A model generated the notes under the pieces. That model ran no database searches, was not told the DNA's origin, and saw only the letters and a list, made by a program, of their open reading frames with translations. This document shows, in pieces, positions 1 through 19,755 of a stretch of DNA of 31,755 bases. Made by a program: the position numbers and the translations under genes. Each line of letters opens with the position of its first letter. The stretch's first letter is position 1. The DNA is from a virus: positions 1 through 31,755 of IMG/VR virus record IMGVR_UViG_3300035183_000152. One strand, written 5' to 3'.

Positions 1-252
1 TTTGTCTGCCGTCACCCAAATGACGGCACCCTTGGCTACGGACTCGGCCTCGGAGAGCGTCGCTGCATAGCCGAGCAATCTCGGCTTCTGCAAACTGCCC
101 CACTCGTCGCGGACCTGTTCGTAGACGGGCGAGGTGGGAAGACCTTTGAGCTCCACTCCCGTGCCGAGCTTGAAGGGCTGGCGCACTATGCGCTCGCCCT
201 TGTCATTCGTCGGGGGCTTGTAGTCTTTTCGGGGCTTCACAAACACTACCAT
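1..252 (-). CDS. Hypothetical protein, C-terminus cut by window edge
   Basis: An 84-codon reading frame without a stop runs off the left edge, so the true length is unknown. The start is fixed by a strong ribosome binding site, AGGAGAGAGACA directly before the ATG. This is the same cassette that starts most genes of this leftward operon. The visible protein starts MVVFVKPRKDYKPPTNDKG, is basic at its N-terminus and becomes mixed further on; I see no signal peptide or membrane segment. It is the last visible gene of the ribozyme-punctuated operon and lies 16 nt after the CCA end of the tRNA-like gene. tRNA 3' processing would therefore release its message. I do not recognise the family. Confidence 0.75.
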   Translation of the reverse strand, partial: MVVFVKPRKDYKPPTNDKGERIVRQPFKLGTGVELKGLPTSPVYEQVRDEWGSLQKPRLLGYAATLSEAESVAKGAVIWVTADK

Positions 253-268
253 TGTCTCTCTCCTATAG

Positions 269-358
269 TGGAGCGGAACCCAGGGACTCGAACCCTGATC
301 GGCCTGGTTGGCCCCTCGAAGGGTTGTCCAGGTGTGCTTACCCATACACTAGTTCCGC
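269..358 (-). tRNA. tRNA-like gene with an enlarged anticodon arm
   Basis: Read leftward, the 7-bp acceptor stem is GCGGAAC/GTTCCGC, followed by T and an encoded CCA. Bases 8-9 are TA. The D arm is GTGT/GCAC with GGG in its loop. The T arm is CAGGG-TTCGAGT-CCCTG, with one extra G before the acceptor strand. A 5-nt variable loop (CCGAT) follows the 5-bp anticodon stem CCTGG/CCAGG. The anticodon loop is abnormal: 20 nt instead of 7, holding a second small hairpin (CCC-TTCGA-GGG). If the inner loop CTTCGAG acts as the anticodon loop it would read UCG (Arg, codon CGA), but this is a guess. It may instead be a non-decoding tRNA mimic or a decayed tRNA. It sits between a hammerhead ribozyme and the next gene's ribosome binding site. 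Confidence 0.7.
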
Positions 359-363
359 ATTTG

Positions 364-433
364 CGAGCTGCCATCATCAGTGCCCTTTGCTCAAAGGGGC
401 AGACCCCGGTGCGGACGCCACCGGGGTTTCGGC
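364..433 (-). ncRNA. Type II hammerhead ribozyme HHR1
   Basis: In leftward order: stem II strand GCC (433-431), GAAA (430-427), stem III CCCCGG/CCGGGG (426-421 with 409-404), then UC (403-402), the expected cleavage site between 402 and 401. Stem I is TGCCC/GGGCA plus an inner TTT/AAA part, followed by CTGATGA (380-374), one extra T, and GGC (372-370) closing stem II. The stem I loop TGAGC (393-389) can pair with GCTCG (368-364), giving a pseudoknot with one G-U pair. The stop codon TAA of the gene before is directly adjacent (436-434). The next element is the tRNA-like gene, 5 nt after the pseudoknot. No activity has been shown; the call rests on the core and on agreement with six sister copies. 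Confidence 0.92.
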
Positions 434-697
434 TTAATGGATTGTCACGACCTTGGGAGGCTCGTGGCATCGACACTCAGGACTACCGTCACAGTAGAAC
501 TGAACATGGTAGAAAGCGCCGCCGTTGAACGAGCAGGCGCAACCACCTTCATTGTCCGGCTCCCAAACTGGGTACTTGAGTCCCAACTTCTTAGCATCCT
601 CGAGCACGGCCTTGACGGCTTCGACTTCGTCAATGAAGCCCTCGGCAAGAACCTCACAAGCAGCCTGCTCGTGCACCTTTCGGACCACGACAAACAT
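434..697 (-). CDS. Small cysteine-rich hypothetical protein
   Basis: This 87-aa protein starts MFVVVRKVHEQAACEVL and has an alpha-helical-looking, acidic first half. Four cysteines lie in the second half: GGCAC (two), FYCDGSPEC and CRC motifs, with His residues nearby. That could form a metal site, but I do not recognise a named zinc-finger family. The start codon overlaps the stop of the preceding gene (TAATG), so the two are probably translationally coupled. Its own stop TAA abuts stem II of ribozyme HHR1, so its message would end in the stem III hairpin after cleavage. Function unknown. Confidence 0.8.
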   Translation of the reverse strand: MFVVVRKVHEQAACEVLAEGFIDEVEAVKAVLEDAKKLGLKYPVWEPDNEGGCACSFNGGAFYHVQFYCDGSPECRCHEPPKVVTIH

Positions 698-996
698 TAC
701 TTGTGTGCTCCTTCATTCCAGATCTCGAGGTAACGGGGCCATCGGGCTCTGATCAGACAGACTGAGCGGCCTGTTAGAGTGACGGCGTATACCAATGCCG
801 TCCGATCTCCCTTGGCTTCGTTGATCGCTTCGGGAAAGGTCGCAACGGTTTTGGTATCATGGTTGAAGCGTCCGAGCCGCCGGAAAATGGTAAAGTGATT
901 GGCGTTGGCGAAGACTTGCTCTTCCCATTGCTCGAGCGTCACATCTCTACCGAAGCGATGCTCCGGTGGGATGGCATTTGGATTGGGCTGTTGCAT
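697..996 (-). CDS. Hypothetical protein (99 aa)
   Basis: The protein starts MQQPNPNAIPPEHRFGRDV and is soluble-looking, with aromatic residues throughout and no membrane segment. The ribosome binding site TAAGGAG overlaps the stop codon of the membrane-peptide gene before it, and the start lies 10 nt after that stop. It ends in a TAATG overlap with the next gene. Together with its two neighbours it forms the only three-gene block between ribozymes HHR2 and HHR1. I do not recognise the family. Confidence 0.8.
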   Translation of the reverse strand: MQQPNPNAIPPEHRFGRDVTLEQWEEQVFANANHFTIFRRLGRFNHDTKTVATFPEAINEAKGDRTALVYAVTLTGRSVCLIRARWPRYLEIWNEGAHK

Positions 997-1006
997 CGCG
1001 TGCTCC

Positions 1007-1135
1007 TTACATCCACCACCATACTGTGAGACCGATGGGCACTAGCAAAAGAACGCAAGTGTCCACCACGCCCATGATAGCACGGCGTGCCTTGTTCCGA
1101 TATGTCTGTCTCACGTGGTTCTCGAGTTCTGTCAT
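1007..1135 (-). CDS. Small single-pass membrane protein (42 aa)
   Basis: I chose the ATG at 1135 because it directly follows the cassette ATAGGAGAGAGACA. A longer frame is open upstream but would run through ribozyme HHR2. The peptide starts MTELENHVRQTYRNKARRA and then has a hydrophobic stretch of about 20 residues (VVDTCVLLLVPIGLTVWWWM) that reaches the C-terminus. A basic N-terminal part followed by a membrane helix suggests an inner-membrane protein with its N-terminus in the cytoplasm. It is the first gene after HHR2. The role is unknown; small phage membrane proteins can act in lysis or superinfection exclusion, but nothing here points to one. Confidence 0.75.
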   Translation of the reverse strand: MTELENHVRQTYRNKARRAIMGVVDTCVLLLVPIGLTVWWWM

Positions 1136-1152
1136 TGTCTCTCTCCTATTCC

Positions 1153-1228
1153 GGTCTGTCATCATCAGGCACGGTAGACCATTTCCGTGCGACAAAGGGG
1201 CGGCCCGAAGCCACCCCAATGTTTCGAC
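1153..1228 (-). ncRNA. Type II hammerhead ribozyme HHR2
   Basis: In leftward order: stem II strand GTC (1228-1226), GAAA (1225-1222), stem III with core GGGGTGGC/GCCGCCCC (1217-1210 with 1204-1197) and outer C-G and A-U pairs, then UC. Cleavage is expected between 1191 and 1190. Stem I is GCACGG/CCGTGC (1190-1185 with 1174-1169), followed by CTGATGA, an extra T, and GAC (1160-1158). Stem II is therefore GTC/GAC here against GCC/GGC in HHR1, 3, 4, 4b and 5, a compensatory change. Loop GGTCT (1180-1176) pairs with AGACC (1157-1153). The G of the TAG stop codon of the DUF932 gene is also the first base of stem II. The cassette ATAGGAGAGAGACA-ATG follows. Confidence 0.93.
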
Positions 1229-2217
1229 TACGATGCGTAATCAATCGCCAAACTAAACGCGCGGCGCTTGACACCCGCGAGGTGTCCAAGCCATGCGTTC
1301 TTGAGTGCCGTGTCACGCTCCCGACCAGATTGGTGGTCGATCACGTAGGTGACGGCGTTCAGGGCGCCCCACCACGTTCCCTCGGCCTCGGCGGCTCCAG
1401 GGGCGCTGATCAGAGCTTGACGAAACTTCGGGAGCATCAGCGGCTCGCGCACGCTGCCGTCCTTCTTCTTCGTCCCCTTTTTGGGATCGAACTTGAGCAC
1501 CTCGAAGAAGTACTCGTCCACCTTCTCAGGCTTGCCGACCTTCTTCTTCGACAGAAGACGCGCGGCCTGCTCGAACTCCTCGGTCTGTGCAATCGCCAGC
1601 CCGAGGGTCTGCTCAGCTTTGGCCTTCATGTCCTCATTCCAGTGGCAGGAGTGGGGCATGCGGAAAACGCCTTCGCGCTTTCCGGCACTGCGCCACGAGC
1701 CACCGAGTGCGGCATTCAAGGTATTCCAGCAAACGACCCGGACCAGCGTGTGTAGGGCCAGAACTGCCTTGCCGTGCTGGTGCGGAATTGCGAACAGGAC
1801 ATAGCTCTCGACCTTGTCGGATTTGCCCTTGGGGCCGACGTCGAAGTCCTTGCCGATTTTGGCGAGGACCCAAACGTACTTGCCGCCCCAAAAGGAGCCG
1901 GCAGTCTCGAGTGTCATCTTTGCGGCCTTCACCCACTTCTTGAAGAACTCCATGCCGTCCTTGTTCTGAAACTCCTTCCAGGTACTGCCGACAATATCGA
2001 GGAAGGCGTTGTCGGAGTCCCGGCAGAGAGCGAACTGGCCGTCAATAGCCTCGACCTTGCCGTTCACCTTGCGGAAAATCGGCTGCTTGGAGACCGTCCA
2101 ATCGAGGCCAGCGGCTTTGAGCATCTGCTCAGGGGTCATCTTCTCTGACACCTTCACGCCGAGCCCATGCCACGGAACTTCATTCGCGTAGGCCATCGTT
2201 TCCACTGCATCTGTCAT
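1228..2217 (-). CDS. DUF932 family phage/plasmid-like protein
   Basis: This 329-aa protein matches by eye the DUF932 phage/plasmid-like family. It has the N-terminal MAYANEVPWHGLGVKV motif, an FALCRDSD segment, a middle block WGGKYVWVLAKIG, and a LHTLVRVVCWNTLNAAL segment that resembles the family's conserved Arg-Val-Val-Cys-x-Asn-Thr block. Length is typical. The biochemical role of this family is not established; members are common on phages and plasmids near replication genes. The ATG directly follows the cassette ATAGGAGAGAGACA. Ribozyme HHR3 lies upstream, and its TAG stop shares one base with HHR2. Cleavage would release this gene as a monocistronic message of about 1.05 kb. Confidence 0.85.
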   Translation of the reverse strand: MTDAVETMAYANEVPWHGLGVKVSEKMTPEQMLKAAGLDWTVSKQPIFRKVNGKVEAIDGQFALCRDSDNAFLDIVGSTWKEFQNKDGMEFFKKWVKAAKMTLETAGSFWGGKYVWVLAKIGKDFDVGPKGKSDKVESYVLFAIPHQHGKAVLALHTLVRVVCWNTLNAALGGSWRSAGKREGVFRMPHSCHWNEDMKAKAEQTLGLAIAQTEEFEQAARLLSKKKVGKPEKVDEYFFEVLKFDPKKGTKKKDGSVREPLMLPKFRQALISAPGAAEAEGTWWGALNAVTYVIDHQSGRERDTALKNAWLGHLAGVKRRAFSLAIDYAS

Positions 2218-2233
2218 TGTCTCTCTCCTATCA

Positions 2234-2304
2234 TTGAGCTGCCATCATCAGGCGGGGATTGCTCAAACTCCCGCGACCCCCAGCCTCCTACTGGGGGTTT
2301 CGGC
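2234..2304 (-). ncRNA. Type II hammerhead ribozyme HHR3
   Basis: In leftward order: stem II strand GCC (2304-2302), GAAA (2301-2298), stem III CCCCCAG/CTGGGGG (2297-2291 with 2283-2277), then UC. Cleavage is expected between 2275 and 2274. Stem I is GCGGG/CCCGC, then CTGATGA (2251-2245), an extra T, and GGC (2243-2241). Loop TTGAGC (2266-2261) pairs perfectly with GCTCAA (2239-2234). The same GCTCAA can also pair with TTGAGC at 2314-2309, in the last codons of the upstream gene, so there are two competing folds. The upstream stop TAA lies 1 nt before stem II. ATAGGAGAGAGACA-ATG follows. Confidence 0.93.
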
Positions 2305-2305
2305 G

Positions 2306-3247
2306 TTAGCTCAACAGGCCTGCCGGACCACTATTCCCGACCTGAGGGTCGAGGCCAATGCTGTCGCCAGCCCGGCGACCGTCCGCCACACCCCTCGAGT
2401 TGGAAGCGATCGGCTGCTTACGAGACTTGCGGAGCTTCACAGTCTTGTCGAGGTGCTCCTTGAGCGCCTTCTCGGTCCGCTCATAGACGTTGAGCAGAGC
2501 GGGAAGGTTCTTGCCTGTCGTCTCCGACTTCACCTTACCTTGCTTCGCGGCCTCGATGCGCTCCTTGATGCGCGATGCAAGCCGCAGGCTGCACGCCTGC
2601 TTGAAGCTGGTATCGTATGAGGTCCGTTCCCGAGGGTGGACAGACTTCTGCCCCTCCTTGGAGAGGCGGTCGACTGTCTTGATCAGGTACTCGAACATCA
2701 TATCAGCGACTGCGATGTTGTGCTCGGCACCCACAAACGAGTGAATGTCCTTGCGAATATACCCGCACTTGCGCTGAGCGGTGTAGACGTAGTCATGCGT
2801 GTAGTAGTACTTGCAGAAGTAGAGGGCAGCGCATGCTCCGCCGATGTAGCGTATCCACGGAACGGATGGGGTGCGGAGTCGCGCCTTCGTGATGAAGATA
2901 TCCTCCACTCTCGAGCCGTCCTGCTTGATCTCCTCGACGCTGAGGTTGTACTCGGCGAGGAGTGCTTGCGCCTTCTCAGCCGCGCTTGCCGCTTCGTTTT
3001 CATTCGGCGACGTTGACAAGGCCAGCAACTTGCGGACCTTGTCAACAATCTTTGCGCGCTGCTCCTGCGAACTCGGCCCCTCATTCTTGACGGGGTCCGG
3101 TTGGGACTTCACGGCAAGAGTGAGAAGGTCCATCGGGTTCCACTTTTTGTGTGCCCGATGCTTGGCGGCGTCGTAGCTCGGCGCATCAATCGTGCCGAGC
3201 AGCTTATTGTCGCCATCGTCTCTGAGTTCATAGACGTAGTACAGCAT
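2306..3247 (-). CDS. DUF2786 domain-containing protein
   Basis: This is a 313-aa protein. Residues about 60-105 carry the DUF2786 signature: KIVDKVRKLLALSTSPNENE, then EAASAAEKAQALLAEYNLSVEEI. A larger middle region (about 110-225) with WIRYIGGACAALYF and FVGAEHNIAVADMMFEYL resembles the domain that usually follows DUF2786 in phage proteins. The C-terminal 80 residues are basic and low in complexity. Function is unknown for the family. The start follows AGGAGAGAGAC directly. Two ribozymes (HHR4 and HHR4b) lie upstream and HHR3 directly downstream, 1 nt after the stop. Confidence 0.85.
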   Translation of the reverse strand: MLYYVYELRDDGDNKLLGTIDAPSYDAAKHRAHKKWNPMDLLTLAVKSQPDPVKNEGPSSQEQRAKIVDKVRKLLALSTSPNENEAASAAEKAQALLAEYNLSVEEIKQDGSRVEDIFITKARLRTPSVPWIRYIGGACAALYFCKYYYTHDYVYTAQRKCGYIRKDIHSFVGAEHNIAVADMMFEYLIKTVDRLSKEGQKSVHPRERTSYDTSFKQACSLRLASRIKERIEAAKQGKVKSETTGKNLPALLNVYERTEKALKEHLDKTVKLRKSRKQPIASNSRGVADGRRAGDSIGLDPQVGNSGPAGLLS

Positions 3248-3263
3248 GTCTCTCTCCTATTCA

Positions 3264-3332
3264 TGACCTGCCATCATCAGGCCCGGGTGGGTCAGCTCCG
3301 GGCGACCCCGCACCTCCGCGCGGGGTTTCGGC
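3264..3332 (-). ncRNA. Type II hammerhead ribozyme HHR4 (second of tandem pair)
   Basis: In leftward order: stem II strand GCC (3332-3330), GAAA (3329-3326), stem III CCCCGC/GCGGGG (3325-3320 with 3311-3306), then UC. Cleavage is expected between 3304 and 3303. Stem I is GCCCGG/CCGGGC (3303-3298 with 3286-3281, one bulged C), then CTGATGA, an extra T, and GGC (3272-3270). Loop TGACC (3294-3290) pairs with GGTCA (3268-3264). ATAGGAGAGAGAC-ATG of the DUF2786 gene follows. Its 5' neighbour is not a gene but ribozyme HHR4b, 15 nt away. Confidence 0.93.
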
Positions 3333-3347
3333 TTTAAGCTCTCCTAC

Positions 3348-3417
3348 TTGAGCGCCATCATCAGGCCAGTTTGCTCAACACTGGCGACAGGGGCGCAACC
3401 GCCACCCCTGTTTCGGC
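3348..3417 (-). ncRNA. Type II hammerhead ribozyme HHR4b (first of tandem pair)
   Basis: In leftward order: stem II strand GCC (3417-3415), GAAA (3414-3411), stem III CAGGGG/CCCCTG (3410-3405 with 3393-3388), then UC. Cleavage is expected between 3386 and 3385. Stem I is GCCAGT/ACTGGC (3385-3380 with 3370-3365), then CTGATGA, an extra T, and GGC (3356-3354). Loop TTGAGC (3378-3373) pairs with GCTCAA (3353-3348). It is followed by GTAGGAGAG, a decayed copy of the ribosome binding cassette, with no start codon and no gene before HHR4 begins. The stop TAA of the upstream gene lies 2 nt before stem II. Confidence 0.93.
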
Positions 3418-3419
3418 TT

Positions 3420-3635
3420 TTACTTCTCCACGAACCTCGTCTCGAAGCTCCCACGTTTGACTAGCTTACAGATCTCGTACTCGTTTTCTTCGTCATGGCC
3501 GACCAGTTCATAGCCGATCATCTCTTGAAGAACCTCATGCTCGTTTTTGAACTCACCTCGGAGTACGATGTCTCCTGAGCTGTCAAGTACGATGTAAACA
3601 GAGTTCGGTTTTTCGGACTTTGCTTTCAGTGCCAT
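3420..3635 (-). CDS. Small hypothetical protein (71 aa)
   Basis: The protein starts MALKAKSEKPNSVYIVLDSS. The first half alternates hydrophobic residues in a beta-strand pattern (SVYIVLDSSGDIVLRGEF) and the second half looks helical and acidic. The start lies 2 nt after ATAGGAGAGAGACA. The gene stands alone between HHR5 upstream and the HHR4b/HHR4 pair downstream, so cleavage would give it a message of roughly 0.3 kb. I do not recognise the family. Confidence 0.8.
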   Translation of the reverse strand: MALKAKSEKPNSVYIVLDSSGDIVLRGEFKNEHEVLQEMIGYELVGHDEENEYEICKLVKRGSFETRFVEK

Positions 3636-3652
3636 TTGTCTCTCTCCTATAT

Positions 3653-3721
3653 TGCCCTGCCATCATCAGTAGGGGGTGGGGCAGTCCCCCTAGACGGCAC
3701 GCCTCCGCGTGCCGTTTCGGC
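3653..3721 (-). ncRNA. Type II hammerhead ribozyme HHR5
   Basis: In leftward order: stem II strand GCC (3721-3719), GAAA (3718-3715), stem III CGGCACG/CGTGCCG (3714-3708 with 3701-3695), then UC. Cleavage is expected between 3693 and 3692. Stem I is TAGGGGG/CCCCCTA (3692-3686 with 3676-3670), then CTGATGA, an extra T, and GGC (3661-3659). Loop TGCCC (3683-3679) pairs with GGGCA (3657-3653). The upstream stop codon TAG gives its G to stem II, as in HHR2. The cassette ATAGGAGAGAGACA follows. Confidence 0.93.
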
Positions 3722-3936
3722 TAGTAGCTTCCGATGCCGCGACGAACCTTGCGACGAGGTGCTCGTTTGCCAGGGTGGCGGGTCTCAAAGCCGAGGGCCT
3801 TGAGATCGTGCTTCATGGCTTTGTTGAGTACCTGGAGTTGCTGCTCGGCGTTCAGACGCTTCCAAGCAGCAACAACGTCGGCAGGACCCCGGTCAAGGTC
3901 GAGGTCCATGACCGACTCGATTGCGAGTTTTCGCAT
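3721..3936 (-). CDS. Small basic hypothetical protein (71 aa), first gene of the ribozyme operon
   Basis: The protein starts MRKLAIESVMDLDLDRGPAD. A helical middle part (VVAAWKRLNAEQQLQVLNKA) is followed by a strongly basic C-terminus rich in Arg and Lys (HPGKRAPRRKVRRG), which suggests nucleic acid binding. I do not recognise a named family. It is the first protein gene after the 4357-4385 promoter. Its ribosome binding site GTAGGAGAGGCA lies just after ribozyme HHR6 and can pair with a complementary stretch upstream of that ribozyme, so its translation may depend on cleavage. Its TAG stop shares one base with HHR5. Confidence 0.8.
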   Translation of the reverse strand: MRKLAIESVMDLDLDRGPADVVAAWKRLNAEQQLQVLNKAMKHDLKALGFETRHPGKRAPRRKVRRGIGSY

Positions 3937-3952
3937 TGCCTCTCTCCTACCA

Positions 3953-4036
3953 TCGGCCTATCTCGTCAGTGCTCCAGGGGCCAACTGGAACAGAAGCCGC
4001 GCGGGTTAGCTTTGCATCACCGCGCGACTTTTCGAT
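3953..4036 (-). ncRNA. Type II hammerhead ribozyme HHR6 (leader copy, canonical core)
   Basis: This copy differs in sequence but keeps the fold. In leftward order: stem II strand ATC (4036-4034), GAAA (4033-4030), an 11-pair stem III including A15.1-U16.1 and one G-U (4030-4020 with 4004-3994), then UUC. Cleavage is expected between 3993 and 3992. Stem I is an 8-bp helix TGTTCCAG/CTGGAGCA (3992-3985 with 3977-3970), then CTGACGA, then GAT (3962-3960) pairing with ATC. It has no extra T after the core, so the core is fully canonical. Loop TTGGCC (3984-3979) pairs with GGCCGA (3958-3953), one G-U. Its different stems with the same layout are strong support for the whole set. Confidence 0.92.
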
Positions 4037-4050
4037 TAGGAGAAAGAGAG

Positions 4051-4063
4051 ACATTCCGAATGT
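4051..4063. repeat. Perfect inverted repeat ACATTC-C-GAATGT
   Basis: Two 6-bp arms flank a single central C. It lies in the leader between the operon promoter and HHR6. It could be a small operator or, in RNA, part of the leader fold. Chance occurrence cannot be excluded. Confidence 0.4.
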
Positions 4064-4188
4064 TTACCGCGCTCCGCCGCGACCTCAAACGGACATTGGC
4101 GTTAGCGACCGCCGTGCGCGACTGCACGAGCGGACCAGCGGAGGGCTTAGCATCCGGGTGAAGGACGGAACAGCGAACGGGGGCGAGG

Positions 4189-4204
4189 GGTCAACAAGTT
4201 GACC
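4189..4204. repeat. Perfect inverted repeat GGTCAAC-AA-GTTGACC
   Basis: The two 7-bp arms with a 2-bp spacer have the size and symmetry of a repressor operator. It lies about 150 bp downstream of the promoter at 4357-4385, so it could act as a roadblock or as an RNA hairpin rather than a classical operator. Confidence 0.45.
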
Positions 4205-4356
4205 TTGCCGTTCGGGGGCTCGGGCCTAAGGGCTGCAATCGAGGGCGGCTCTGTCGCCGATTGACGGGCCCTTGTGGAAGGGGCTCGCGGGCCTCTGATC
4301 GGTCCCTTTCGCTGATCAAACGGGGCGACGGCCATGCGCCGACCAGCGACCCCCTA

Positions 4357-4385
4357 AATATAGTCGATTTCCAGGGTCGTGACAA
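4357..4385 (-). promoter_or_regulatory. Leftward sigma-70-type promoter of the ribozyme operon
   Basis: The -35 TTGTCA (4385-4380) and -10 TATATT (4362-4357) are separated by exactly 17 bp, each matching consensus at five of six positions. It lies in the gene-free region downstream of the HNH gene and points at the ribozyme-punctuated genes. Start of transcription is expected near 4350. Confidence 0.65.
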
Positions 4386-4394
4386 CCAGAAAGC

Positions 4395-4409
4395 GCACTG
4401 TAAAAGTGC
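4395..4409. other. Small hairpin between HNH gene and promoter
   Basis: The arms are GCACT and AGTGC with a 5-nt loop, 5 bp after the end of the HNH gene and just upstream of the -35 box. It has no following U-tract and is short, so it may be a weak terminator for the gene before or only a chance hairpin. Confidence 0.3.
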
Positions 4410-4414
4410 CGATT

Positions 4415-4906
4415 TTAGCCCCGTTTTCCGCCACTTTTAGAGCGCGCTACAGGGGCTTTTGCTTTTCTGGCACTGGGACTCCTGCCGGACGGCAAGTGGG
4501 ACTCCATGCCCCTCTTTGCCCGCGCCACGCGGTTTTGTGCGAGGGTGATTGATTGCAGGTTCGACCAGCGATTGTCGTCGCGTTTGCCGTTCCGGTGATG
4601 CACTTCAAATCCGGGTGCCGGAAAGGAGCCTGTCATCCATAGCCAGATTATGCGATGTGCCTGGAATGGGAGGCCGAGGATCATGCCTTGCCGATACCCG
4701 TCACACAAGCTAGTAAAAGCCTCTTTCCCTGCGTAGCGAGTATTCCAACTTCGTTGCTGGTTTTTTGTCTTCTTGAACCATTTTGAAGCGCGTTGCCTCC
4801 AGTACAGTTTGCCAGTTTCCGGGTTGTAGTAGAGCAGTTCACGCACTATTGCCTGACTTATGCTGCTACGTCGCGCAGTGATTTTGGCGTCCTTAGATTT
4901 TGTCAC
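4415..4906 (-). CDS. HNH endonuclease, homing type
   Basis: This 163-aa protein has the HNH core FEVHHRNGKRDDNRWSNLQ at about residues 100-118 (His-His, Asn and a downstream Asn). It is preceded by YYNPETGKLYWR and an AHRIIWLWMTG segment, as in phage HNH homing endonucleases that bind DNA through an AP2-like N-terminal part. The C-terminus is basic and low in complexity. It probably cuts or nicks DNA at a specific site and spreads as a selfish gene. The start is GTG, overlapping the stop of the SNF2 helicase (GTGA), so it is translationally coupled to it. It is the last gene before the promoter region of the ribozyme operon. Confidence 0.88.
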   Translation of the reverse strand: MTKSKDAKITARRSSISQAIVRELLYYNPETGKLYWRQRASKWFKKTKNQQRSWNTRYAGKEAFTSLCDGYRQGMILGLPFQAHRIIWLWMTGSFPAPGFEVHHRNGKRDDNRWSNLQSITLAQNRVARAKRGMESHLPSGRSPSARKAKAPVARSKSGGKRG

Positions 4907-6459
4907 TTGAGCTTGGCGCGGCCTTCTATGATCGCTTCGAATAGGTCCTTGCCTTCGGCATGGAACTTCAAGATCTGTCTGTCAGTTGCCGTCGCGCAGT
5001 AGTCGATCAGGAACACCCGGCCATGTGTGGAGTACTGGCGATGGAAGCGACGAATGAGCTGCTTGCGATTGATCACGGAGAGCGGCGACTCGAAGACGAG
5101 ACCGTATCGTGCCACCTGGAGATTGGGACCGAAGACGCATGAGTTGTTGAGCACCAGCGCCCTGATCTGATCATCGTTGTCGAAGTCCCGTAGCACGTTA
5201 TCCCAGTTCTTTGTCTGTCCGCCTCCGCGCGCCCATCCGATACCCACGCGTGAGAGCTCCCGGCATATCAGGTCGCCGGAGTGAACGAACTCATGGAAGA
5301 TGATTGCCTTGTGCCCCTGGCAGATATCTTCGGCATCCGAGATCAGCGCTTCCAGTTTCGGCTTCGGGTCGAAGTCGATCTCAGCGCGCTCACCCGTCTC
5401 GTCATCCTTGAAGCCGAGGAAGCCGGAGCTGATCTGCCTCATGCGGAGGAACCCGCGCTTGGTCTCCATCTTGTCGCCGCGTGCCTGCCTGATAGCACGC
5501 TTGGCCGCAAGGTAGTAGTCCTCGGCGTCATGCGGGAGCTGCACGTTGCGGACAATGGTAGTGATGCGCGGTAGGTCGCCTTCGTCGGCCTCGTAGCGAA
5601 TAGTCCCATGCGCTAGACAGCGGTGGAGCTTGCCCTGCTTCTCCTTGTCGAACTTGTAGTCGAACCCACCCCAAAAGTTCCGCGACTCCTTGAAGAAGGC
5701 CGAGCGGAACAAGCCAAGAGTCTCGCCAAGGGAGTACCCGCCATCGAGCAGAAACATTTGGCCCCACAGTGGAGTTGGATCTCTGCCGAATGGGGTGCCA
5801 GTGAGCTCGAAGAAGTAGGGGACCAATTTGCTTATCGCTCGCAGGATGCGGAAGGTGACGGCCCGATGGCTGCCGACGAAGGTGCTTTCATCGGCGGTCG
5901 TGATCTGGCATTTCTCCGCGACGGCCTTCACCCGTTTGCGGTTGGGCTTGAGGCGCATCTTCTTCCGCGACTTGCGCCGAGTCTTGCGCTCCTCGAGATC
6001 GCAAATCATCCGAATGAAGCCGGCATAGGTCTCGACAATGAAGAGGGCTTTCGTCCGCTCCAACCGCCGCCACTTCTGCTCTGTCGATCCCCGCAAAATG
6101 CAAACCGTGCTCGAGGGGCTGTGCTTCGCGATTTCGCGCTTCCACTCACCCTTGTTGATCTTGCGCGGAACGAGTACCAGATTGTGCTTGGCTAGTCCTG
6201 CTTTCTTGAACCATCGAGCCAGCGCAATATTGAGTAGGGTCTTGCCCATGCCGGGGTCGAGGAAGAACCCGAAGCGTCCGGTCTCAATGCCGATCAACAA
6301 GCAGACTTTCTGGTGCTTCGACAGCTTGGACCAGATGGGTGGCCGGACAGGCAGCGCCCGCATCATGTCGCCAAGTTCGCGCTTCGTGAGTTTCTTCCAG
6401 GGGCGGAAGTCTCGACGCTCGCGCGCCAGGAATTGCTTTGTCGCTTTGCGAGATATCAT
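4903..6459 (-). CDS. SNF2/DEAD-type helicase (superfamily 2)
   Basis: This is a 518-aa ATP-dependent DNA helicase or translocase. Walker A is DPGMGKT (68-74), the motif II region is ADEST (189-193), motif III is LTGTP (219-223), and the C-terminal RecA lobe has a motif VI-like QLIRRFHRQ about 60 residues from the end. The layout fits phage SNF2-like helicases, which are generally placed in replication or recombination. I chose the ATG at 6459 because it overlaps the previous stop (ATGA); the frame stays open 225 nt further but would cover the whole small gene upstream. The HNH gene follows with a GTGA overlap. Confidence 0.85.
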   Translation of the reverse strand: MISRKATKQFLARERRDFRPWKKLTKRELGDMMRALPVRPPIWSKLSKHQKVCLLIGIETGRFGFFLDPGMGKTLLNIALARWFKKAGLAKHNLVLVPRKINKGEWKREIAKHSPSSTVCILRGSTEQKWRRLERTKALFIVETYAGFIRMICDLEERKTRRKSRKKMRLKPNRKRVKAVAEKCQITTADESTFVGSHRAVTFRILRAISKLVPYFFELTGTPFGRDPTPLWGQMFLLDGGYSLGETLGLFRSAFFKESRNFWGGFDYKFDKEKQGKLHRCLAHGTIRYEADEGDLPRITTIVRNVQLPHDAEDYYLAAKRAIRQARGDKMETKRGFLRMRQISSGFLGFKDDETGERAEIDFDPKPKLEALISDAEDICQGHKAIIFHEFVHSGDLICRELSRVGIGWARGGGQTKNWDNVLRDFDNDDQIRALVLNNSCVFGPNLQVARYGLVFESPLSVINRKQLIRRFHRQYSTHGRVFLIDYCATATDRQILKFHAEGKDLFEAIIEGRAKLK

Positions 6460-6668
6460 GCCTTGCTCTTTCTCGCGTTGGCGTAGAAGAGCCTCCCGCC
6501 AATCTCTTCCACTTTCGAGGCGGCAACTCGAAGGTCTGAGGCAAGTTGCCAACACTCGTTCATTGTAAGCTTGCCAGACGCAGAAGCCGCAGATAGCTCC
6601 GTCTGGACCCCGGCGACTTTCGTCCGCGCTTCTTTTAGGAGTGCTCGTGACTTGCTTCCCAGGTTCAT
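6456..6668 (-). CDS. Small hypothetical protein (70 aa)
   Basis: The protein starts MNLGSKSRALLKEARTKVAG and is predicted helical with heptad-like hydrophobic spacing, ending in the basic tail NARKSKA. It could form a coiled coil. Its stop overlaps the start of the SNF2 helicase (ATGA). The ribosome binding site is weak. It is the first gene of a short leftward unit (this gene, helicase, HNH) that begins in the AT-rich region 6669-6790. I see TATGAT at 6716-6711 as a possible -10 for it but no good -35. Function unknown. Confidence 0.65.
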   Translation of the reverse strand: MNLGSKSRALLKEARTKVAGVQTELSAASASGKLTMNECWQLASDLRVAASKVEEIGGRLFYANARKSKA

Positions 6669-6706
6669 GGTTCTTCATCGGCACTTTGTCGCATGGGTAT
6701 TCACAC

Positions 6707-6735
6707 TTGCATCATACTTCTATACTACATATAAA
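6707..6735 (+). promoter_or_regulatory. Rightward sigma-70-type promoter
   Basis: TTGCAT (6707-6712) and TATAAA (6730-6735) are separated by 17 bp in a locally AT-rich stretch. It points at the 6793-7005 gene. A possible leftward -10 (TATGAT, 6716-6711) overlaps its -35, so this may be a divergent control point for the two small units. Confidence 0.55.
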
Positions 6736-6792
6736 TTGCAGTAGGATGGGGCAGTAAGAAACCCAACTGAAACAGAGAAAGGAGTACTAGAA

Positions 6793-7005
6793 ATGAAGTC
6801 GAAGAAGTCAGTACCAAGCCCCAAGCATCGGGCCGGCTCCCGCAAGGAGCAGGTTCACAAGATTTTCGATGCGAAGGGTCCAGACGCGGCTCGGACGGCA
6901 GGACTTCGCAGGAAGTTGAAGTCTTCGACCCTTCGAACGTGGTTTAGCACTTGGAGTAAGTCGGCTCCCACGCGGAGCGGCTCCGGTGCTGAGGCGCGAG
7001 CATAG
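6793..7005 (+). CDS. Small basic protein, possible DNA-binding regulator (70 aa)
   Basis: This is the only rightward gene in the left half. The start has a good ribosome binding site (AAAGGAG, 9 nt before the ATG). The protein starts MKSKKSVPSPKHRAGSRKEQ and is very basic. The middle part, HKIFDAKGPDAARTAGLRR followed by KLKSSTLRTWFSTW, looks like a helix-turn-helix in which DAARTAGL would be the turn region. It may be a small transcription regulator, but I cannot name a family. It has its own promoter and ends at the bidirectional terminator 7019-7062. Confidence 0.75.
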   Translation: MKSKKSVPSPKHRAGSRKEQVHKIFDAKGPDAARTAGLRRKLKSSTLRTWFSTWSKSAPTRSGSGAEARA

Positions 7006-7018
7006 TTTAGGCACGCGC

Positions 7019-7062
7019 GAGGGCGCTCGGGTTTCTCTTGTCTCTCCAGTCCGGGCGCCCTC
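7019..7062. terminator. Bidirectional hairpin between convergent genes
   Basis: The 12-nt arms GAGGGCGCTCGG and CCGGGCGCCCTC pair fully with one G-U, around a 20-nt pyrimidine-rich loop. It lies exactly between the convergent gene 6793-7005 and the DnaB-like helicase, and its last bases are part of the helicase stop codon. There is no clear U-tract on either side, so it may work with a partner factor or act as a 3'-end stabiliser. Confidence 0.65.
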
Positions 7063-8521
7063 AATCATCTGCATCATTCTCCTCCCCCGACTCCTCCTCC
7101 TCTTCATCCTCTTCCTGACCCGTCATATCGCCTAGCTGGTCCCAGTAATCGGATGGCAAGCGCACGGCGTCAAGCGCGAATTGTCCGAGCGCATAGCTCT
7201 GAGTGATCAGCACGGCGAACTTGTCCTCCTCTGCCCTTGCCTTCTCCACGTACAATCGCGCCAGCCCGTACTTCTTCTCGCTCGCCGTTTGGCTGTAGGT
7301 GATGGCAATGTCCGATGATTGCACAAGGGAGATGTCCTCACCCGTATGCACGCCTCGGACAGTAGTTGCTTTCAGGGACTCTCGATTGCCTTGGGCGGCC
7401 GTCACAAGCGCGAAGTTCCGGCGCTTCGACATGCCGCGTAACTCCTCGTACATGCGGCCAAGGGAGACACGAAGGTTGCGCGGATCGGTCTTCATCAGCT
7501 TGACGTAGTCGAGCACGACCATATCGGGGATGAACTTCTCGGCGACTTCCAGATTGTCCAGGTAGGCTTCTAGCTTGTCCGGTGTCAGCGAACTCGTCGG
7601 AAAGGACTTGACGCGAAGGTAGTCCATATACTTCGCGTAGGAGTTGACATGCGTCTCCATCTCTGTTGCGAGATCTGGCGACTGGAAGGTCCATTCAGGA
7701 GTCACGACCTCCAAGCCGAAGTCCTCGAGTTCCCCTTCATCGTTCAGTTCGAAGGTCGTTACTTCGGCTTCTGCATCGCGCTTAGTGATGGAGAACAGGT
7801 TTTGCCAGTACCGCTGCACTACCTCTTCTTCTTCCATCTCGAGGCTGATATGCGCCACGCGCTTGCGGAGTTTGATGGCCTGCTTGCCGATATGGATAAG
7901 ACCCCATGTCTTGCCGTAGCCTGTCGGCGCGATCAGCATAAAGGCCCGACACCGCATGGGAGCGATCTCACGCCTGTCCAGGGGTTCGATGCCGGTGCGG
8001 AACTCCGAGGGACGCTGCTCGAGGAACTCCACTAGTCGCTCGATATCCCCCAGCTTCATGCCGGGATCGAAGTTCTCAACTCGGGTGTGGAGCATGTCGG
8101 CAACCAGCATCTCGACCTGCTCCAGACTGTCGGCCTGTTTGGAGTTCAAGGCTTCGGCAGCTTTGAGGATGCGGTCCATGAAGAGTTGGGCCCGCGAGTA
8201 GCGGTCCAGGTTGTCCATGACGTAGCGTTCATTGATGCCCGCAGTCCACAGCTGCTGCATCAGTCCGACGATGCGCTTGAACGTCCCGGCTTTGCGGTTG
8301 TGCTTGTCACCCGTTATGTCGGCAAACAGGTCGGCGGTATGCGCGGAGCCCGGAGGTTGGCCGTACCGTCGCCAATAGTCCAGAAGTCGCTCCGCGATCA
8401 CGCGGTAGTCGCCATCGCACAGTTCGGGCTGGAGCCGTCGCGCGATGATTTTACCCTGCTCCTCGGAGTACGCGAGCAGGGTCAGGATATTTTCTTGAAG
8501 TGTTGCGCTAAGTTTTTCCAT
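7061..8521 (-). CDS. DnaB-like replicative helicase (superfamily 4)
   Basis: This 486-aa protein has an N-terminal helical region (about 1-150) and a RecA-like helicase domain. Walker A is APTGYGKT (198-205), followed by the H1a-like SLEMEEEEVVQRYW, Walker B PDMVVLDYVKL with Asp338, then an EELRGMSKRRNFALVTAAQGN segment (H3/H4-like, with Gln) and an IAITYSQ region. The C-terminal tail is extremely acidic (runs of Glu and Asp), as is common in single-strand DNA tracking partners. It would unwind the fork during phage DNA replication. The start overlaps the preceding zinc-ribbon gene by 14 nt. No separate primase is seen in the window. Confidence 0.88.
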   Translation of the reverse strand: MEKLSATLQENILTLLAYSEEQGKIIARRLQPELCDGDYRVIAERLLDYWRRYGQPPGSAHTADLFADITGDKHNRKAGTFKRIVGLMQQLWTAGINERYVMDNLDRYSRAQLFMDRILKAAEALNSKQADSLEQVEMLVADMLHTRVENFDPGMKLGDIERLVEFLEQRPSEFRTGIEPLDRREIAPMRCRAFMLIAPTGYGKTWGLIHIGKQAIKLRKRVAHISLEMEEEEVVQRYWQNLFSITKRDAEAEVTTFELNDEGELEDFGLEVVTPEWTFQSPDLATEMETHVNSYAKYMDYLRVKSFPTSSLTPDKLEAYLDNLEVAEKFIPDMVVLDYVKLMKTDPRNLRVSLGRMYEELRGMSKRRNFALVTAAQGNRESLKATTVRGVHTGEDISLVQSSDIAITYSQTASEKKYGLARLYVEKARAEEDKFAVLITQSYALGQFALDAVRLPSDYWDQLGDMTGQEEDEEEEESGEENDADD

Positions 8522-17382: not shown

Positions 17383-17558
17383 GACCTGCCGAGTACTTTC
17401 CACCGAGACGCTACGAGCCAGAGGGCTGTCAAACCTGTCCTCTGATCATTGCTGCCCTTGCCTGCCTGCTCGCCTTCGTGGGTATGTGCATCGCTTTCAC
17501 CTACCTCCCCCTACTAGGAGTCGTCATCAATGCCGAAGATCTTGCCAGTCGAAGCTAG
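17379..17558 (+). CDS. Small membrane protein (59 aa)
   Basis: The ATG overlaps the TerL stop (ATGA). The protein starts MRPAEYFPPRRYEPEGCQTC, with a soluble N-terminus, and then has one long hydrophobic segment (about residues 21-48, PLIIAALACLLAFVGMCIAF onward). The last 29 nt overlap the portal gene. Membrane proteins between terminase and portal are unusual; it might be involved in lysis, but nothing in the sequence proves it. Confidence 0.65.
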   Translation: MRPAEYFPPRRYEPEGCQTCPLIIAALACLLAFVGMCIAFTYLPLLGVVINAEDLASRS

Positions 17559-19755
17559 GGGGCCGGCCCCGCATATCGCCAAGTATGAGTCGGGTTCCCT
17601 GGCCCGTCTTGCTGACAGCCTCAAGAACCTCATCTCCGGCCTCGGCACGGTGAAGGACAAGACTGTCGCGACTACGTGGTACTTCCGTGAGCTGTCCACT
17701 CAGGAGATCGAGGCCGCCTACCGCACGGACTGGATGGCACGGAAGATCGTTGACATCCCTGCCGACGATGCTACCCGCGAGTGGCGCTCGTGGTATGCCG
17801 ATGAAGCGCAGCTCAAGGCCATCTACAAGGAGGAGGAGAAGCACGGTATCCAACAAAAGGTCGCCGAAGCTCTGAGCAAGGCGCGCCTCTATGGTGGGTC
17901 CGCGCTTGTGCTCGGTGTCGGACAGGGCAGCGCCTCCTCGGAGCTCAAGCCGGAAACCGTAGGCAAGGATGGGTTGAAGTTCGTCCACGTCATGTCGCGC
18001 TACGACATTACCAGCGGTGACCTGGACAGGGATCCCCTGTCCCCTTACTTCGGCGAGCCGATCAAGTACAGCATCAACAGCAAGACTAAGGGCGTGGTGG
18101 ACATTCACCCGTCCCGCGTCATTCGCTTCATCGGTATGAGGCGGCCGCAGCTGCTCACCGCACAAGACGCATGGGGTGACTCCGTGCTCCAGGTCGTGCA
18201 AGATGCCGTCAAGGAGGCCGGACAGACCATCTCCTCGATTGCCACCCTGATCTCGGAAGCCAAGGTGGACGTGTTGGGTGTGCCGAACCTCACTGAGATC
18301 CTGTCGAATGAAGAGTACTCGCAGGCATTCCAAGAGCGCTTGCAGGAAGCCAACGTACTCAAGTCCATGATCAATGCCCTGGTCTTCGACAAGGACGAGA
18401 GCTGGCAGCGTATTCAAGCCAACCTCACTGGCCTCGATGCTTTGGTGCAGATGTTCTTGTTGATTGTGTCGGGCGCGGCGGATATTCCGGCCACCCGCAT
18501 GCTCGGGCAGTCTCCTGCCGGCTTGTCGGCAACGGGTGAGTCCGACATTCGCAACTACTACGATAAGATCTCCTCAGAGCAGGAGATGCGGATCGGCCCG
18601 GCACTCCGTCGCCTCGACAAGATCCTGCTCCTGTCCGCCGGTATACCGTTCAACCTTGTCGAAGACGAGGAGATCTACTACGAGTGGGATCCCCTTTGGC
18701 AGCCGACTGAACAAGAGCGGGCCGCAACTGACAAGGCGCAGGCCGAGACCTGGAAGATCGACGTGGACGCTGGCGTCATTGACAAGGAGATCCTGGCGGA
18801 AGCCCGTTCCAACCAGATCTCCGAGTCGGGTGTATACCCGGGGTGGGATCAGATTATTGACGGCAAGGATCTCATGGGGCCCGATCCCGTGGGCCTGCAG
18901 CTGGGCATGCCTGATCCGACCGATCCTCAGGCCGTCGCCGAATGGAACAGGCAGCAGCAAGCACAAGCGGCCGCTGCCGCTAACCAGAAGCAGCCGGCTC
19001 TATCCGGTCAGCAACCCCCTCGTCCCGGGCAGCAAAAGGACGGGCTTGTCATGTTCCGCGATATGGCACCCAAGCCCCTATACGTCCGGCGACCCGTGCT
19101 CAATTCTCGCGATATCCTTTCATGGGCGCGTGGGCAGGGCATCCCCGATCTGCTCGCCGGATCGGAGCTGCACGTCACGGTGGTCTATTCCCGCAAGCCT
19201 GTTGATTGGTTCAAGGCTGGCGAGGACTGTTGGTACGGCCCCAACGCCGACGAAGTCAAGGTTGTGGTACCCGAAGGTGGACCGCGAGCCGTGGAGTGCT
19301 TCGATGGAGGCGCCATCGTCCTGCAGTTCGCATCGTCGCGTCTGTCCCATCGCCACCACGACATCCTCTGGCGGTGCGACGGTTCGCATGACTCTGAGGA
19401 TTACAACCCGCATATCACCCTGTCCTATTCGGACAATGAGAGCATCCGGCAGGAGATCTACAACGGCGAGATCACTCCTTACCGCGGGCAGATTGTCCTC
19501 GGCCCTGAGATCTTCGAGGAGGCCAAGGGCTATGATCCGGAGGAAGAGCCCTCGAGCGGCGGTAGCGAGTCCGAGCCAACAGGCGTACCCGAGGTCAAGG
19601 TGCAGGTGTATCAGCAACAGGACGCGCAGCAGCCCCCTGTAGTGCATGTCCACCAGCACGTCGAGTCGAAGCGCGGGCCTTACCGCATCGACAAGAACGC
19701 CGATGGTTCCGTCACCGTGACCCCGCTCACGGATGGAGGCGAACAGAGTGACTAA
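17530..19755 (+). CDS. Portal protein fused to Acb1-like anti-CBASS phosphoesterase
   Basis: Residues about 40-430 of this 741-aa protein match the DUF1073 portal family (WYFRELSTQEIEAAYRTDWM, then SRYDITSGDLDRDPLSPYFG and LGQSPAGLSATGESDIRNYY). The portal is the 12-subunit ring through which DNA enters the capsid. A Gln/Ala/Pro linker (about 475-505) leads to a C-terminal 2H phosphoesterase domain with two HxT motifs, HVT (His548) and HIT (His628), as in the anti-CBASS protein Acb1. Acb1 degrades cyclic oligonucleotide signals so that the CBASS effector is not switched on. The C-terminal 90 residues are acidic and Gln-rich, ending with a small basic-acidic region. The fusion of DUF1073 with an Acb1-like part is known in other phages. 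Confidence 0.87.
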   Translation: MPKILPVEARGPAPHIAKYESGSLARLADSLKNLISGLGTVKDKTVATTWYFRELSTQEIEAAYRTDWMARKIVDIPADDATREWRSWYADEAQLKAIYKEEEKHGIQQKVAEALSKARLYGGSALVLGVGQGSASSELKPETVGKDGLKFVHVMSRYDITSGDLDRDPLSPYFGEPIKYSINSKTKGVVDIHPSRVIRFIGMRRPQLLTAQDAWGDSVLQVVQDAVKEAGQTISSIATLISEAKVDVLGVPNLTEILSNEEYSQAFQERLQEANVLKSMINALVFDKDESWQRIQANLTGLDALVQMFLLIVSGAADIPATRMLGQSPAGLSATGESDIRNYYDKISSEQEMRIGPALRRLDKILLLSAGIPFNLVEDEEIYYEWDPLWQPTEQERAATDKAQAETWKIDVDAGVIDKEILAEARSNQISESGVYPGWDQIIDGKDLMGPDPVGLQLGMPDPTDPQAVAEWNRQQQAQAAAAANQKQPALSGQQPPRPGQQKDGLVMFRDMAPKPLYVRRPVLNSRDILSWARGQGIPDLLAGSELHVTVVYSRKPVDWFKAGEDCWYGPNADEVKVVVPEGGPRAVECFDGGAIVLQFASSRLSHRHHDILWRCDGSHDSEDYNPHITLSYSDNESIRQEIYNGEITPYRGQIVLGPEIFEEAKGYDPEEEPSSGGSESEPTGVPEVKVQVYQQQDAQQPPVVHVHQHVESKRGPYRIDKNADGSVTVTPLTDGGEQSD

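Follow-up and report, generated by a model that had tools for sequence, protein, structure and literature searches.

The window, by which we mean the whole 31,755-nt stretch of IMG/VR record IMGVR_UViG_3300035183_000152, contains seven type II hammerhead ribozymes (HHRs), located by a structure-aware scan with their C17 scissile bases at 3993, 3693, 3386, 3304, 2275, 1191 and 402. All lie on the minus strand within 3.6 kb. Following a promoter-like site, the order of transcription is HHR6, a 71-aa gene, HHR5, a second 71-aa gene, HHR4b, nothing, HHR4, a DUF2786/DUF7168 gene, HHR3, a DUF932 gene, HHR2, three small genes, HHR1 and tRNA-Gly. The locus thus consists of several same-strand HHRs separated by genes, the arrangement of a phage HHR cluster that punctuates an operon. 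The features are as follows, all on the minus strand.

4357..4385, minus strand: promoter-like site TTGTCA-17-TATATT, 10/12 by consensus match only; likely the operon promoter
3950..4036, minus strand: HHR6, C17 at 3993, first HHR of the operon; stem II AUC/GAU, core CUGACGA
3721..3936, minus strand: 71-aa gene between HHR6 and HHR5
3651..3722, minus strand: HHR5, C17 at 3693 (Rfam and structure-aware scan)
3420..3635, minus strand: 71-aa gene before HHR4b, matching no known family
3347..3418, minus strand: HHR4b, type II hammerhead, C17 at 3386 (Rfam and structure-aware scan)
3378-3373 with 3353-3348, minus strand: HHR4b pseudoknot, UUGAGC (loop I) with GCUCAA (structure-aware scan)
3304..3385, minus strand: 82-nt RNA, the predicted product of cutting by HHR4b and HHR4 together; its fold is a hammerhead closed in every stem and nicked at the scissile bond
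3334..3347, minus strand: spacer of ~15 nt, GUAGGAGAG (3347-3339) and then CUUAA including UAA; no start codon
3262..3333, minus strand: HHR4, type II hammerhead, C17 at 3304, ahead of the 313-aa gene (Rfam and structure-aware scan)
2306..3247, minus strand: gene after HHR4, 313 aa, DUF2786/DUF7168 (phrog_421)
2233..2305, minus strand: HHR3, C17 at 2275, ahead of the 329-aa DUF932 gene (1228-2217)
1148..1228, minus strand: HHR2, C17 at 1191, stem II GUC/GAC (structure-aware scan)
362..434, minus strand: HHR1, C17 at 402, between an 87-aa gene and tRNA-Gly (269-358)

The operon repeats one unit: type II hammerhead, Shine-Dalgarno (SD) cassette (UAGGAGAGAGAC), and gene or short gene group. After five of the seven ribozymes (HHR6, HHR5, HHR4, HHR3 and HHR2) come UAGGAGAGAG[AG]C and a start codon; the exceptions are HHR4b and HHR1, the latter adjoining a tRNA gene downstream and not an SD-led start codon. 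That tRNA-Gly (anticodon ACC, 90 bases by ARAGORN) begins directly after HHR1, which would cut the leader of its precursor. At the other end of the array, the first HHR (3940-4051) is bracketed by an inverted SD cassette, the upstream UCUCUCUUUCUCCUA being complementary to the SD that follows the ribozyme. The fold z of this bracket is -2.9 in the window and -6.4 in a relative introduced below (G001, also indexed as L516; 5700-5868, minus strand). Cleavage by HHR6 would separate the anti-SD from the SD and could turn translation on; alternatively, UCUCUCUUUCUCCUA may be a plus-strand SD with an ATG at 4060 (33 aa). Outside the operon, positions 17530-19755 encode a portal protein (Phage_portal_3) that carries an anti-CBASS Acb1 domain at its C-terminus, in the same reading frame.

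Five of the seven HHRs match the Rfam model at E below 0.01. HHR4 (40.7 bits) and HHR1 (39.8) exceed the gathering score of 37 bits, and HHR5 (35.9), HHR3 (33.4) and HHR4b (31.6) fall below it; Rfam did not report HHR6 at E up to 1, and the structure-aware scan found it. All seven have the Hammerhead_II core (CUGAUGA/GAAA/NUH, with CUGACGA in HHR6), closed stems I and III and an open stem II. In every copy loop I forms a pseudoknot of 5-7 bp with the tail after stem II, with a mean own pairing of 5.7 compared to 4.3 when tails are swapped. The random-window control covers the first version of the scan, which found six HHRs: with dinucleotide content kept the same, 20 random windows gave no matches. 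The second version also allows an internal loop and adds HHR2.

The first-pass annotation had pointed to tandem ribozymes at 3264-3417 with no gene between them and cleavage at 3386/3385 and 3304/3303, and here Rfam and the structure-aware scan agree with it. HHR4b and HHR4 are both complete type II hammerheads, and their scissile bonds are separated by a gene-less interval of 82 nt. The Hammerhead_II (RF02276) matches span 3347-3418 for HHR4b (E 0.009) and 3262-3333 for HHR4. In each ribozyme stems I and III are present, stem II has 3 bp and loop I forms a pseudoknot with the 3' tail (6 bp in HHR4b, 5 bp in HHR4), and the core CUGAUGA, GAAA and GUC is all consensus in both. The two look intact and, judged by these features, should still cut in the cell. 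That only one is active and the other a decaying copy is extremely improbable: HHR4b does score under the Rfam threshold, but so do HHR3 and HHR5, and its core residues, both hairpins, stem II and 6-bp pseudoknot are all intact. A chimeric hammerhead with a closed stem II in the uncut RNA was rejected by eye, the 5' strand of HHR4 stem I and the 3' strand of HHR4b forming 3 bp only.

We then compared the two ribozymes with each other. By halves they are 60% and 64% alike, no more than either is to other copies in the array. They are not copies of each other, unlike the repeats of retrozymes or multimeric satellite RNAs, to which the layout had first been likened. The retrozymes of plants and animals (PMC4918200, PMC7229834) do share with the window two hammerheads around a short RNA that can be excised and circularized, but their HHRs are near-identical, of type III or type I, and placed in direct repeats, and retrozymes depend on reverse transcription. 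HHR4b and HHR4 differ in sequence, are of type II and sit in a phage operon, and we saw no repeats or mobile-element parts there. The comparison with retrozymes and satellite RNAs therefore finds no support.

The spacer between HHR4b and HHR4 reads GUAGGAGAGCUUAAA. Its first half is the SD cassette of the operon, with UAGGAGAG kept at the usual distance after HHR4b, which bears out the earlier description of a decayed ribosome-binding cassette. To this we add a UAA at 3336-3334, just ahead of HHR4, where the stop codons of neighboring genes sit relative to the next HHR. No start codon was found after the GUAGGAGAG remnant, nor any minus-strand ORF filling the gap between the two ribozymes. The UAA is consistent with being the stop codon of a lost gene, and the spacer is what a deletion running from just past the SD to the end of a gene would leave.

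The RNA between the two cleavage sites carries stem I and CUGAUGA of one copy and GAAA and stem III of the other. As the first-pass annotation had anticipated, it can be closed into a hammerhead: RNAfold gives the exact three-stem junction, stem II GGC/GCC included, for both the linear and the circular form. The 82-nt RNA is probably released with 5'-OH and 2',3'-cyclic phosphate ends as a by-product, a status that, like its lack of function, is our inference. Since it can re-form a nicked hammerhead, some reverse ligation would be chemically reasonable, and nothing suggests that it is used.

A second contig was found through the HHR-plus-SD pattern CUGAUGAUGRC-N-UAGGAGAGAGA, which matched no other contig besides the window. 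This contig (G001; IMGVR_UViG_3300050821_005831, 50.8 kb) has 15 HHRs on one strand by covariance model, with the same layout of HHR, SD and gene. It has a helicase gene (compared at its end), a DUF2786 gene and a DUF932 gene in common with the window at 45-53% identity, the 313-aa DUF2786 gene being 49% identical by tblastn, and it is the sole relative with the same anchors. Upstream of DUF2786, G001 has HHR, 68-aa gene, HHR, whereas the window has HHR, nothing, HHR. A slot able to hold a gene is therefore empty in the window. The small genes between HHRs gave no convincing match between the two phages, and the 68-aa gene has no homologue in the window. Being unrelated in the two phages, these genes indicate that the slots exchange their contents, and with the anchors of window positions 1228-3247 conserved and all small inter-HHR genes different, HHR-bounded units may be exchange cassettes.

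We favor the reading that, in a phage operon punctuated by ribozymes, HHR4b and HHR4 enclose an empty cassette whose gene has been lost, and assign it a probability of about 0.72. Of the two outcomes offered earlier, gene loss or a small RNA as the product, the first is thus preferred and the second is improbable. That the slot was emptied rather than never filled is inferred from one divergent relative, since our searches gave no near relative of the window phage: neither blastn against phage records, with window positions 1-8000 and with the doublet as queries, nor IMG/VR protein scans with the helicase and DUF932 returned a close relative, and a search with the DUF2786 protein gave two loci only, at 30-32% identity. 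Two points weigh against the loss of a gene. The slot gene of that single divergent relative is homologous to nothing in the window, and the lack of decay in either ribozyme could reflect selection on the pair.

We next asked how often neighboring HHRs lack a gene between them. Arrays were collected from IMG/VR scans with a hammerhead pattern and a pair pattern and from one bacterial-genome scan, checked for structure and freed of repeats, leaving 41 arrays with 258 HHRs among the matches listed. In these 41 arrays, again among the matches listed, an SD-led ORF of at least 25 aa was present in 197 of 207 intervals of at least 200 nt and in 0 of 10 intervals shorter than 100 nt, and there were no intervals of 100-200 nt. 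The share of pairs is inflated by the inclusion of loci that were sought as pairs; for the loci of the single-HHR pattern it is 2/68 among the matches listed. Most matches of both patterns, those of the bacterial scan included, did not pass the structure check. In bacterial genomes, a pattern that demanded strict core letters led to no confirmed doublet. The first pair pattern was too loose, as type I and III hammerheads also match it, and a candidate doublet at 152 nt (L109) was discarded for its weak second HHR.

Among the matches listed, every confirmed pair besides that of the window lies in a locus like those of the R4-like Streptomyces phages (Arquatrovirinae), the IMG/VR loci being placed in this group by shared sequence rather than by a tree. 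The phages are Sentinel, phiScoe1 and Spernnie (Sentinelvirus), Alvy and Thestral (Caelumvirus) and Marav (Salutenavirus). As in the window, two intact type II HHRs flank a gene-less interval within an array (here of 6-12 HHRs). Unlike in the window, the spacing is 64-70 nt, there is no SD remnant, the sequence is different, the phages are unrelated to the window phage, and relatives with one HHR at the locus exist. Among the open-access papers searched, we found none that links Streptomyces phages to hammerheads. That these phages keep a gene-less pair in three genera, with no relative that has a gene there, also counts against the loss of a gene in the window. The first-pass annotation had held that gene-less spacers throughout related phages would speak against its proposal; they occur in this unrelated group only, and not in G001.

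The Streptomyces locus exists in several forms. Janus (L312) has one A-type HHR; Sentinel (L305), Thestral and Alvy have A plus B; and Caelum (L311), Issmi, Amethyst and Diane have one A/B hybrid, in which stem III is A-like and stem I is B-like. Its A and B parts meet near the cleavage site, which looks like recombination at ribozyme borders. One and the same gene lies upstream of all these variants, and the next gene starts with MVSLDK/T in Janus, Caelum, Sentinel, Thestral and Alvy; in none of the phages examined was there a gene between the A and B HHRs ahead of the MVSLDK gene. From these sequences, single and double states appear to have interchanged at this locus, and the Streptomyces pair may have arisen by gain of a ribozyme or by rearrangement. 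For the window, the equivalent would be that an HHR-plus-gene cassette entered beside an existing HHR and left two in a row. We regard this as unlikely, although it would accord with the A, A/B or A plus B variants at the Streptomyces locus, with their same upstream gene and, in several, the same MVSLDK gene, and HHR4b loop I (UUGAGCAA) is closer to those of HHR3 and HHR1 than to that of HHR4. The SD remnant in the window argues that HHR4b once had its own translated unit, whereas the Streptomyces pairs lack an SD.

The other explanation is that the 82-nt RNA is itself the product, a small RNA with its own function that is perhaps circularized by reverse hammerhead ligation or host RtcB. This would agree with two intact ribozymes, with the full hammerhead junction in the linear and circular folds, with the recurrence of a 64-70 nt gene-less pair with intact cores in Sentinelvirus, Caelumvirus and Salutenavirus, and with a report, as cited in PMC6155905, that pseudoknot-bearing hammerheads can ligate well (Canny 2007). 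We asked if closure of the excised unit is under selection by comparing the 3' stem II strand of each HHR with the 5' stem II strand of the next, a statistic that covers the arrays as a whole and not the HHR4b/HHR4 pair alone. Neighbors were compatible in 59.9% of cases compared to 56.9% (sd 2.1) when the order within arrays was shuffled, and 44 of 500 shuffles equaled or exceeded the observed value. In the 96 neighbor pairs with differing stem II 5' strands, own pairing (at least 3 bp) was found in 95% and pairing with the neighbor, as in a circle, in 10%; the 95% is partly conditioned by the scan, which demands at least 2 bp, and the neighbor comparison is not so conditioned. Across the arrays we thus found no sign that the HHRs are selected to close the excised unit. 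Since circle pairing is scarcely above the shuffled order and is 10% where neighbors differ, the ribozymes appear to be maintained for cutting linear transcripts in cis. Stem II of HHR4b and HHR4 is compatible, as it is in 3 more of the window's 6 neighbor pairs. The ability to re-close into a hammerhead is shared by every interval whose two bounding type II HHRs match in stem II.

Other observations also disfavor the 82-nt RNA as the product, and we consider that role improbable. The spacer is an SD remnant and not new sequence, and stem II compatibility is a common state that is not enriched among neighbors beyond shuffled order. No RtcB (PF01139) turned up in the window record, in G001 or in any of three Streptomyces phages, and a previous study of HHR clusters in phages looked for circles and detected none (PMC3088659). 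The RNAs of the window and the Streptomyces-phage pairs share no sequence beyond the core, and for several of the Streptomyces pieces, energy-based folding that leaves out pseudoknots gives another structure. The broader idea that some phages make a dedicated 64-82 nt self-excised and perhaps circular RNA, of which the R4-like pair would be the kept functional form, is very unlikely.

The operon is most likely transcribed as one early RNA, with each hammerhead cutting as it emerges. This would yield short mRNAs that begin with the stem I/pseudoknot structure followed by the SD and end in the stem III hairpin. Ribonuclease protection and separate control of genes are plausible benefits of such cutting. 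Under the preferred reading of a lost gene, the gene between HHR4b and HHR4 would be gone, with the ribosome-binding remnant and the UAA left behind, and the same chemistry would free 82 nt.

This picture is close to what is known of prophages. Type II HHRs with a pseudoknot occur there in clusters that flank single genes, and they cleave in vitro and in E. coli; processing into single-gene mRNAs was proposed, and spliced or circular products were considered possible but none was detected (Perreault et al, 2011; PMC3088659). The window has the same type II fold (RF02276), the same loop I/3'-tail pseudoknot and the same placement of several HHRs around single genes or short blocks of genes. It differs in the density of the array (7 HHRs in 3.6 kb, and 15 HHRs in G001) and in its gene-less pair. 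The array is a further case of the published phage HHR clusters, and what is new is the empty slot and the recurrence of gene-less pairs.

A 2017 review (PMC6155905) describes the role of prokaryotic HHRs as an open question and notes their persistent link to phages. For the function of bacterial and phage hammerheads the arrays give a concrete picture: with one ribozyme per gene, exchangeable cassettes and empty cassettes, the ribozymes would act as the punctuation of a modular operon. The presence of the gene-less pair in cultured Streptomyces phages such as Sentinel, Alvy and Thestral makes both the processing model and the small-circle idea testable on isolates.
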